Of a DNA stretch of 64,000 bases, positions 5,906-30,315 are shown piece by piece; the stretch's first letter is position 1; each line of letters opens with the position of its first letter. The position numbers were made by a program, and so were the translations under genes. The notes below the pieces were generated by a model. That model worked only from the letters and a program-made list of their open reading frames with translations. It was not told the origin of the DNA and searched no databases. Origin of the DNA: Fictibacillus marinisediminis (GTDB lineage: Bacteria; Bacillota; Bacilli; Bacillales; Fictibacillaceae); contig NZ_JAIWJX010000002.1 of the NCBI RefSeq assembly GCF_023149135.1, positions 434,001 to 498,000 on the forward strand, given 5' to 3'.

Positions 5906-6172
5906 ATGCGGCAGATAAAATTCATGCTGAAACAATTTCTAAAGGAGCCTCTGTGGTTTAAACTGCTAATCATTGCAGCGTTACTTATTTCTATTATTTT
6001 TAGCAGTTCATATTTTTCACACCATGCTTATAATGAAAGCATCTCCAAATTAGCTGCGGCTATCTTTTTAGGTGCTTATGGAATTAAATTTAGGAGAAGT
6101 CCTGTAACTTCTATCATTTTATTTGTTGCAGCAGCTATAGGCATTTATCTGGCCATTTCAGCAGTAGTTTAG
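5906..6172 (+). CDS. small hydrophobic membrane protein (88 aa)
   Basis: No family is recognised. From ATG 5906 (AAGGGG 7 nt upstream; the in-frame ATG at 5879 lacks an RBS) it encodes 88 residues with a basic N-terminus (MRQIKFMLKQFLKEPLWFK), one membrane segment LLIIAALLISIIFSSSYF, and a C-terminal hydrophobic pair ending GIYLAISAVV. It could be a 2-3 TM protein with the N-terminus inside. The neighbours give no functional hint. Confidence 0.6.
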   Translation: MRQIKFMLKQFLKEPLWFKLLIIAALLISIIFSSSYFSHHAYNESISKLAAAIFLGAYGIKFRRSPVTSIILFVAAAIGIYLAISAVV

Positions 6173-6280
6173 CAGTGAGGCGGTAAATATTAAAATAGTC
6201 CGCAATTGAATCAAGGAACTTAAATAGCCGGTAAAAACCGAACAATAAATTTATTAATGTAAATAAAATTCGTATTTTTA

Positions 6281-6309
6281 TTGTAGATTGTTTAGTTGTT
6301 TGCTATATT
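6281..6309 (+). promoter_or_regulatory. SigA-type promoter of the guanine-riboswitch transcript
   Basis: TTGTAG (6281-6286), a 17-nt spacer and TATATT (6304-6309). Transcription would start near 6316, about 20 nt before the aptamer. Confidence 0.65.
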
Positions 6310-6335
6310 ATCAAAGTAATCTTCTATATATCATT

Positions 6336-6406
6336 ACTCGTATATGCTCGGAAATATGGTCTGAGTGTCTCTACCTGGTTCCCATTGCAAGAACTGGACT
6401 ACGGGT
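6336..6406 (+). ncRNA. purine (guanine-type) riboswitch aptamer
   Basis: All parts of the three-way junction can be read. P1 is 6336-6342 with 6400-6406. P2 is GCTCGGA/TCTGAGT, closed by an ATATGG loop. J2/3 carries TCTCTA. P3 is 6375-6381 with 6391-6397, with an L3 loop ending TTGCAA. The specificity base, equivalent to C74 in the xpt aptamer, is C at 6399 (G-A-C-T-A), so guanine or hypoxanthine is expected rather than adenine, which needs T there. Confidence 0.93.
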
Positions 6407-6469
6407 TAAAGTATTCGATTTTTTAGCTTTTTTCAGCTGATTTCATTTTGTATACTTTGACTTTCGCCG

Positions 6470-6510
6470 GTCCAGTGGGTAGAACGTATTCTACCTGTCT
6501 GGACTTTTTT
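6470..6510 (+). terminator. riboswitch expression-platform terminator
   Basis: GTCCAG (6470-6475) pairs with CTGGAC (6499-6504), with a further inner stem GGGTAGAA/TTCTACC, followed by six T. The same CTGGAC occurs in the aptamer (6394-6399) and can pair with GTCCAG as an antiterminator. Ligand binding would hold it in P3/J3-1 and allow termination, so this should be an OFF switch. Confidence 0.9.
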
Positions 6511-6559
6511 CTTTGGGCCAGATCTTCGAGTATATCAAACCACTAGGAGGATCATGGAT

Positions 6560-7441
6560 ATGAAAAAGATGAAAACAAAATACGCTCTATTAGCGGTGGT
6601 TACAGCACTGTTACTTGGGGCAGCTGCAGGATGGAGATCTGATTCACCGAATGAAACAGTACAAGCCAAGTCTCATCATAAGCCGATTGTTATTCAAGGA
6701 CCGATGCCGATTGAAGCTGAAAAATTTGCGCAAAAGCTAAAGAATGTGAAAGTGGAAAAATCAGGCACTTTTGTTTTTTATAAAGGTACGCTTAACCATT
6801 ATCCCGTAATCGTGGCAAAAACAGGCAAGGGAATGGAAAATACAGCAGCCGCTACATCGATCGCTATCGAAAAATATCATCCAATTGCCATCATCAATCA
6901 AGGAACATCAGGCGGTCATGATCCAGAACTGAATGTTTTTGATATTGTGTTAGGAAAACAAACAGTAAATCTCGGCTCTTTAAGAACAGGGGAGAAGGGT
7001 GAAGGCGAGGGAATGGATCCTGCAGCATGGAAGCCGATGGATCTTATGGCTTCTGAAGGAAGTGCAGGAGAAGATCCGAATGCTGAAAAACCTCGTTTCT
7101 ACGCAGGGAATAAGGATTTGCTCGAAGCAGCTAATGAAGTTAAAGATAAATACACCAAGGGTAAGGTTGTAGAAGGTACGATAGGTTCGGCAGACGTTTG
7201 GAATAATGAAGTGGATCGAATTAAATGGTTCCATTCAAAGTACGGTACATCGGTGGAAGAAATGGAAGGTGCTTCAGCGGCACAAATGGCCCAGGCCTAT
7301 AATGTACCATTCTTGGGAATCCGAGTATTGTCCAATAATAAAACAAATGGCGGTAAATACAACCCCAATACAGCAGAAGCATGTCAAAACTATGTTTATC
7401 AAGTAGTTGAAAAATATATTTCTGAGATACCTAACAAATAA
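6560..7441 (+). CDS. exported nucleoside phosphorylase/nucleosidase (MTAN-like fold)
   Basis: About 293 residues. An N-terminal signal peptide (basic MKKMKTKY, then ALLAVVTALLLGAAAG, possible cleavage after QAKS) precedes a nucleoside-phosphorylase-I domain. It has GPMPIEAEKF for the N-terminal active-site acid, INQGTSGG, and VEEMEGASAAQMAQAYNVPFLGIRVLSNN. MTA/SAH nucleosidases have S-D where this has S-N (Asn at 261 counted from the ATG at 6554), a change that in trimeric PNPs goes with 6-oxopurine binding. With the guanine riboswitch upstream I infer purine salvage from external nucleosides. AGGAGG at 6545-6550 favours ATG 6560 (9 nt) over ATG 6554 (3 nt). Confidence 0.88.
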   Translation: MKKMKTKYALLAVVTALLLGAAAGWRSDSPNETVQAKSHHKPIVIQGPMPIEAEKFAQKLKNVKVEKSGTFVFYKGTLNHYPVIVAKTGKGMENTAAATSIAIEKYHPIAIINQGTSGGHDPELNVFDIVLGKQTVNLGSLRTGEKGEGEGMDPAAWKPMDLMASEGSAGEDPNAEKPRFYAGNKDLLEAANEVKDKYTKGKVVEGTIGSADVWNNEVDRIKWFHSKYGTSVEEMEGASAAQMAQAYNVPFLGIRVLSNNKTNGGKYNPNTAEACQNYVYQVVEKYISEIPNK

Positions 7442-7452
7442 TAGGTTCCAAA

Positions 7453-7680
7453 GGGGCTGTCCAAGAAGTCTGTAAGCTGTTGATTTCCGTTCCAGGCTGC
7501 TCGCTTTCCGCGGGGCGTGCGGTGAGCCTCTTGGTGCAAGCACCGGCGGGAGTCTCACCTGTCACGCTAGTCCCGCAGGAGTCTCGCATCTTCCACTTCA
7601 ATTAACTTTTCATTGAAGATTTTTCAAGCCAAAAAGGGGCTGCCTGAAGGTCAATTTTCGACTTTCTGGACAGCCTCTTT
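7453..7680 (-). repeat. dispersed repeat, family B copy 1 (MITE-like)
   Basis: About 228 bp with terminal GGCTGTCC / GGACAGCC. It has a GC-rich core (ctcgctttccgcggggcg...) and a terminator-like hairpin near the 3' end (GAAGGTC...GACTTTC then CTTTTT). The opposite strand aligns along its whole length with 42873-43094. It shares the core with family A. It fills the gap between the nucleosidase and the SnoaL-like gene. Confidence 0.8.
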
Positions 7681-7764
7681 TTATATGAACTAAAAGGAAA
7701 GTTAAATAAACATGTGTAATACAGATAGTAATATGATGTGCAGCAAAGCTGGGAGGAATATAGT

Positions 7765-30095: not shown

Positions 30096-30250
30096 TCCGA
30101 TGAGGTAGAGGTCGCGGCTTTTATTAGTAGGACGTACGAGATGAAGAGGACATCATAGACTCCGTGTGAAAGGAAAAGCTGCCGAAATTTGTGCTTAACT
30201 CTGGAAGTATGAATTGGGGCTGTATTCGAACAGGAACAGCACTGTCACAC
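30096..30250 (+). ncRNA. lysine riboswitch (L box) aptamer
   Basis: The conserved blocks appear in order: GATGAGGTAGAGGTCGCGGC, then TTAGTAG, GTGTGAAAGGAAAAGCTGCCG, CTGGAAG and GCACTGTCAC. This is the five-helix L box of Bacillus lysC-type leaders. It lies between a strong promoter and a terminator, in front of a lysine-type amino acid permease. Confidence 0.93.
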
Positions 30251-30315
30251 CCACGAATAACCGGTGGGTGGGATGCGCTATCTTACGGAAGGCATGATGC
30301 GGATTAATACTAATC

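Follow-up and report, generated by a model that had tools for sequence, protein, structure and literature searches.

A guanine-class riboswitch precedes a predicted exported nucleoside hydrolase with asparagine at the catalytic aspartate position in Fictibacillus marinisediminis

Purine riboswitches are distinguished by the nucleotide at position 74, where C marks the guanine class and U marks the adenine class. Futalosine hydrolase (MqnB) is a menaquinone enzyme that releases hypoxanthine. A protein of Aeromonas hydrophila is reportedly the subject of a 2017 paper by Xu et al.; its structure 5b7q was deposited under a title that announces a periplasmic MTA/SAH nucleosidase (MTAN) and its functional analysis. 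The available part of a review treats this protein as an MTA nucleosidase (PMC6302742), and a periplasmic MTAN has been used as an antibacterial docking target, according to the accessible portion of PMC9862385. Among trimeric purine nucleoside phosphorylases (PNPs), the preference of the human enzyme for 6-oxopurines is set by Asn243, and with Asp at this place its efficiency with adenosine is 4,000-fold higher (PMC6128611, in the part available), and the N256D variant of K. lactis PNP gains adenosine as a substrate (PMC5074518, likewise in part). The converse change has been made in MTANs: judging by the titles of the crystal structures 1z5o, 4p54 and 4oy3, MTA or SAH occupies the active sites of E. 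coli D197N and H. pylori D198N. The H. pylori labels are not uniform, as this Asp-bearing enzyme is titled futalosine hydrolase in 4bmx and others, and the same protein, with the residue named D198, is an aminodeoxyfutalosine nucleosidase in other entries.

Here we describe a locus of Fictibacillus marinisediminis in which a guanine-class riboswitch precedes a gene for a nucleoside-phosphorylase-fold protein (Table 1). The window, that is, the whole stretch of DNA analysed, is 64,000 nucleotides long. The riboswitch anatomy and its conservation, the export signal, the residue pattern and the fold were computed, and from these we infer the ligand, the direction of control, the substrate and the product. 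We consider that the gene probably encodes an exported 6-oxopurine nucleoside hydrolase made when guanine is low.

Table 1. Features of the riboswitch and gene, in window coordinates
Feature	Position	Strand	Basis or remark
Purine riboswitch aptamer, guanine class	6318..6421	+	RF00167, 73 bits
Aptamer helices	P1 6335-6342/6400-6407; P2 6346-6352/6360-6366; P3 6375-6381/6391-6397		Read from RF00167 alignment
CTGGAC, aptamer side of antiterminator (P3 3' strand and J3/1)	6394..6399	+	Pairs with 6470-6475
Intrinsic terminator (stem-loop 6470-6504 and T6 6505-6510)	6470..6510	+	Sequence; RNAfold
Shine-Dalgarno AGGAGG	6545..6550	+	Sequence
Predicted exported nucleoside-phosphorylase-fold hydrolase (295 aa, or 293 aa with the likelier start at ATG 6560)	6554..7441	+	
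Signal-peptide region; possible cleavage after VQA	6560..6676	+	Pattern; site read by eye
R-V-L-S-N-N motif, residues 257-262; N261 replaces E. coli MTAN Asp197	7322..7339	+	Alignment

The aptamer scores above the RF00167 gathering score of 37 (E 5.2e-11 in a whole-window search), and all three helices around the junction are present in the alignment. The discriminator is C6399, located in the J3/1 sequence GAC (GACTACG), the J2/3 segment reads GUCUCUACC, and U51 is kept (TCTACC). Covariation was assessed across 28 aptamers, in which 15 of 22 pairs are changed on both sides as compared with 5.8 in shuffles, and none of 200 dinucleotide shuffles of the leader from 6318 to 6530 folds as well as the leader itself (z -4.34). 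Judged by this anatomy, the leader is a guanine-class riboswitch of the OFF type, with both ligand and direction of control predicted. The sole plus-strand site in a promoter scan, at 6169-6196, does not lie immediately 5' of the aptamer.

The terminator stem GTCCAG...CTGGAC is followed by six T, and its 5' arm is fully complementary to the CTGGAC segment of the aptamer. An RNAfold-based search assigns the terminator -19.3 kcal/mol; a consensus terminator scan reported none in the window leader. Folds of 6318-6486 and 6318-6530 both pair 6394-6399 with 6470-6475, and the terminator forms when the aptamer is enforced (-52.2 kcal/mol). Complementarity and folds thus predict that terminator and antiterminator are mutually exclusive. 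The unconstrained fold of 6318-6515 also retains the terminator, even without ligand (-53.4 kcal/mol), which makes kinetic switching probable, as for comparable riboswitches. A search for any 6-nt complement proved uninformative, as chance often yields one, and we instead compared the 6-mer ending at C74 with the downstream leader, allowing G-U pairs and using shuffled leaders as the control. Of 76 parsed leaders, the window's among them, 64 hold a full downstream complement of this 6-mer, as compared with a fraction of 0.21 for shuffled leaders; 29 of the 64 achieve it by Watson-Crick pairs alone, 12 parsed leaders have none, and five of the 80 related loci described below (L017, L034, L057, L071 and L083) were not parsed. 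Both sides of the antiterminator vary together across leaders (CTAGAC/GTCTAG, CTGGAC/GTCCAG and CCGGAC/GTCTGG), and RNAfold-based terminators are present in 66 of 77 leaders and absent in 11. The preliminary description of this DNA had proposed a complete guanine-type aptamer with C at 6399 and a terminator sharing CTGGAC with it, and both are borne out.

The association between aptamer and gene is conserved. Of 138 relatives identified, the best 80, all in named genomes, were compared, and RF00167 is located upstream of the gene at 78 of these loci (20/20, 19/20, 20/20 and 19/20). The two loci in which even a permissive search returned no aptamer are a second copy in Peribacillus cavernae (L034) and a Sporosarcina MAG (L083). 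The discriminator is C in all 78 aptamers, 76 by pattern and two (L012 and L035) by eye. In a set of 60 genomes of relatives, own genome included, which may share species with the 80 loci, a full-length gene occurs in 24, each time with the aptamer (24/24). Compared with 22 aptamers that precede the same gene in other genomes, the window aptamer has a mean identity of 89%; compared with five of the other six in its own genome, the value is 64%, the sixth (L006) lying outside the alignment. A comparison of neighbouring ORFs of 110 aa or more yielded no candidate functional partner, the best-shared neighbour recurring at 11 of the 80 loci. Given the upstream link, the likeness among same-gene aptamers and the lack of a recurring neighbour, the aptamer and the gene seem to move together. 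By comparison, the aptamer was found at 0 of 12 loci beyond the Bacillales clade (L149-L160), and at 0 of 12 control loci of MTAN-type and futalosine hydrolase genes. In the gene tree, where the outgroup branch is very long, the MTAN rows fall into more than one group and long branches triggered warnings, the window protein groups with Gottfriedia and not with another Fictibacillus (L038); together with the absence of a full-length gene from 36 of the 60 relatives, this points to horizontal transfer or repeated loss. The closest named relative among those found is a gene of Fictibacillus sp. FJAT-27399 (98% identical). A same-genus genome carries a 62-residue remnant (L141; G201:C1:580727-580912) that is 74% identical to residues 229-290, with no aptamer within the stretch searched.

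Seven purine aptamers are present in the 4.57 Mb genome, and their nearest downstream genes are a Xan_ur_permease gene, guaA, xpt, purE, the window gene, an amidohydrolase gene and nupC. J3/1 is GAC in six of the seven and reads AUGC in L006. The L006 aptamer (1501-1603; G000:C2:1475339-1475441) lies 5' of the amidohydrolase gene, whose score as 5'-deoxyadenosine deaminase is 725.9 bits. The sequence of this aptamer raises the possibility of a variant with changed ligand specificity; it lacks a J2/3 insertion and fits neither variant class in the available part of PMC9295807. The genome also encodes a cytosolic-type MtnN with Asp (L009), an MTAN-like protein with Asp (L011) and its own futalosine hydrolase (L102). 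Separately, the window contains a lysine riboswitch aptamer, RF00168, at 30098-30288 (+; 104.9 bits).

The gene product matches PF01048 (143 bits). Translation probably starts at ATG 6560, 9 nt after the AGGAGG sequence, and the database copy of the protein has 293 aa. Its N-terminus, MKKMKTKYALLAVVTALLLGAAAGW...VQAK, is of the export type by pattern, consistent with the signal peptide proposed earlier. It reads AGW where many relatives have AGC and so lacks the lipobox cysteine; lipid anchoring is therefore unlikely, and the window protein is possibly secreted or held by an uncleaved anchor. Pattern matching across 121 close homologs gives a lipobox in 69 and a different hydrophobic stretch at the N-terminus in the other 52; of 120 proteins in a second exported group, gammaproteobacterial and clostridial, 102 show either feature, and the remaining 18 comprise 12 without an export stretch, four without the anchor motif and two fragments. 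Patterns thus suggest a family-wide N-terminal export signal. The idea of a secreted enzyme consequently survives as export, and not as free secretion in general, as the 69 lipobox-bearing homologs look like lipoproteins. Four members of the exported group (P0228, P0235, P0236 and P0239), one of them from Moorella naiadis and named stalk domain-containing, carry an added PF07833 domain, which suggests surface anchoring in Clostridia. Directly 3' of the gene is a 235-base intergenic repeat (7456-7690) with 51 matches in the genome, eight copies of which, the window's included, have at least 95% identity over most of the length. No co-transcribed gene is evident because this repeat begins just 3' of the coding sequence, and the locus consists of the riboswitch and one gene.

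The active site of the window protein combines MTAN-like and non-MTAN features. Glu12, Glu174 and Arg193 of E. coli MTAN are kept as E54, E238 and R257, while the position of the catalytic Asp197 is occupied by Asn261, as the preliminary description had read from the R-V-L-S-N-N motif. The residue at this position is Asn in 121 of 121 close homologs, in 118 of 118 proteins of the second exported group (120 second-search hits minus two 153-residue fragments, P0227 and P0233) and in 16 of 16 futalosine hydrolases (a 17th hit, L094, was unparsed and is left out), and Asp in 9 of 9 MTAN-type proteins. The arginines of the motifs DPLR and IIR in E. coli DeoD, a hexameric PNP, which we take to bind phosphate, are absent, the aligned residues being E54 and N115. 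Since the MTAN catalytic Glu and Arg are kept and the DeoD arginines are absent, hydrolysis is more likely than phosphorolysis, and a phosphorylase function was rejected. The likening to PNPs in the preliminary description therefore holds for the Asn at the purine-contacting position and gives way to a hydrolase in the type of reaction.

These features bear on an alternative in which the protein is an exported nucleosidase for the 6-aminopurines MTA and SAH, destroying or scavenging them outside the cell, with the riboswitch tying it to general purine supply. Most named homologs among those listed are called MTA/SAH nucleosidase or similar, the nearest solved protein was deposited as a periplasmic MTAN and so regarded in the review cited above, the catalytic Glu and Arg are those of MTANs, and the score for TIGR01704 (72.5 of 73.8) falls only 1.3 bits short of the cut-off. 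We nevertheless regard this alternative as unlikely: all 239 exported-family proteins aligned have Asn in place of the catalytic Asp, the same change in true MTANs yielded the substrate-bound crystals described above, and NF004079 gives only 95.2 of 169. Moreover, the genome already has a cytosolic MtnN, and the controlling riboswitch belongs to the guanine class instead of being one for SAM. Further differences occur in the region around Ile50, Phe105 and Tyr107 of E. coli MTAN, which we take to line the alkylthio pocket; a literature search for this role found nothing. The corresponding residues of Bacillales members are Lys92, Ser167 and Gly169, and Leu164 replaces Val102. The earlier statement that the protein is not an MTA/SAH nucleosidase is accordingly likely, with the deposited assignment of a homolog bearing the same Asn standing against it. 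By comparison, the score for futalosine hydrolase (TIGR03664) is 68.2 of 124.7.

The two exported groups share Trp216-Asn217 and Asn261 and differ at residue 92 and in a loop, so that base recognition looks common to both and the 5' side different. Lys92 is found in 121 of 121 close homologs as compared with Val or Ile in 116 of 118 proteins of the other group; both this lysine and the loop 164-175 are particular to the Bacillales members, and they could point to a different substrate. This substrate might be a nucleotide, in which case the enzyme would free the base from external GMP or IMP, resembling AMP nucleosidase but acting on 6-oxopurines. Lys263 adjoins the motif, and the segment that follows the motif reads SNTDLHGE in the gammaproteobacterial exported relatives P0122 and P0172, similar to SDKPLHGE in the AMP nucleosidase of E. 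coli (amn, L171). However, the phosphate-binding site is putative, the structure model contains no ligand and the other exported group lacks Lys92, and we consider a nucleotide nucleosidase improbable. A nearly inactive purine-binding protein, serving as a receptor or uptake subunit with catalysis disabled by the Asn, is more improbable still. The substrate-bound mutant structures, judged by title, suggest that the change cripples true MTANs, and the lipoboxes of 69 close homologs recall importer binding proteins; against this, futalosine hydrolases, active enzymes by name, share the Asn, the other catalytic residues are nearly invariant and no neighbour gene recurs widely.

We thus return to the 6-oxopurine nucleoside hydrolase. 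When guanine is plentiful in the cell, it would bind the aptamer, the terminator would form and the gene would be silent; when guanine is scarce, the antiterminator would form and the gene would be read. The product would be exported, being secreted or membrane-held in the window strain and lipid-anchored in many relatives, and would hydrolyse the N-glycosidic bond of guanosine, inosine and perhaps xanthosine and the deoxy forms. By roles that we presume to carry over from E. coli MTAN and PNPs, Asn261 would hold O6/N7 of the leaving base, Glu54 would activate water, and Glu238 and Arg257 would hold the ribose. A permease and a phosphoribosyltransferase, both controlled by this riboswitch class, could then import the freed guanine or hypoxanthine and put it to use. 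From the residue pattern we judge a 6-oxopurine the most plausible product, because futalosine hydrolases have the same Asn (16/16) and because of the published Asn/Asp swaps in trimeric PNPs. Genes of general purine supply such as purE are also under guanine riboswitches, so the identity of the released base does not follow from the switch by itself, and an adenine-releasing enzyme would be compatible with such control. The preliminary interpretation is in sum partly supported.

If this reading is correct, guanine riboswitches drive base release outside the cell, besides uptake and synthesis, and the exported family would allow the rule that pairs Asn with 6-oxo and Asp with 6-amino purines to be tested cleanly among hydrolases. 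Homologs at E 1e-20 or better number 1,345, of which the best 120 were examined, and many database entries would be misnamed after MTA/SAH nucleosidase, a methionine-recycling enzyme. More tentatively, and with less confidence than for the window protein itself, the whole exported family of Bacillota and Gammaproteobacteria, including the A. hydrophila protein of the 5b7g, 5b7n, 5b7p and 5b7q entries, might be a separate family of 6-oxopurine hydrolases and not of MTA/SAH nucleosidases, its Asn gained independently of futalosine hydrolase; in Bacillales it might have become a cassette of riboswitch and gene that moved horizontally and serves to forage for external purines, nucleotides possibly among them.

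The locus shares its aptamer class, terminator mechanism and purine logic with the genes known to be under guanine riboswitches in Bacillales and relatives (xpt-pbuX, pbuG, guaA, purE and nupR). No exported enzyme is among such targets in the available parts of PMC4342826, PMC9430930, PMC11477304 and PMC9295807, and a search of titles and abstracts, covering few subscription journals, found no guanine riboswitch before an exported nucleosidase; the accessible text of a C. difficile review tables a nucleosidase gene among amino-acid genes and not with purine riboswitches (PMC11477304). Compared with E. coli MTAN (mtn, 1nc1/1jys; about 26% identity), the window protein has the same fold and catalytic Glu and Arg residues, but differs in having Asn for Asp197, an export signal, riboswitch control and changed residues in what we take to be the 5' pocket. 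Futalosine hydrolase belongs to the same superfamily and has Asn in R-x-[IV]-S-N, yet forms a clade separate from the window protein family (100/100). The nearest solved protein is that of A. hydrophila (5b7g/5b7n/5b7p/5b7q), with 38-42% identity according to the aligner used and about 41% for 5b7q by Foldseek. This protein has the same Asn as the window protein and lacks the Lys92 and the MDLMASEGSAGEDP loop of the latter. Either the Asn tolerates 6-aminopurines in the exported family, or the MTA/SAH activity of the A. hydrophila protein is weak; a 6-oxopurine specificity of the family would re-open the assignment of the periplasmic MTAN that served as the docking target mentioned above.
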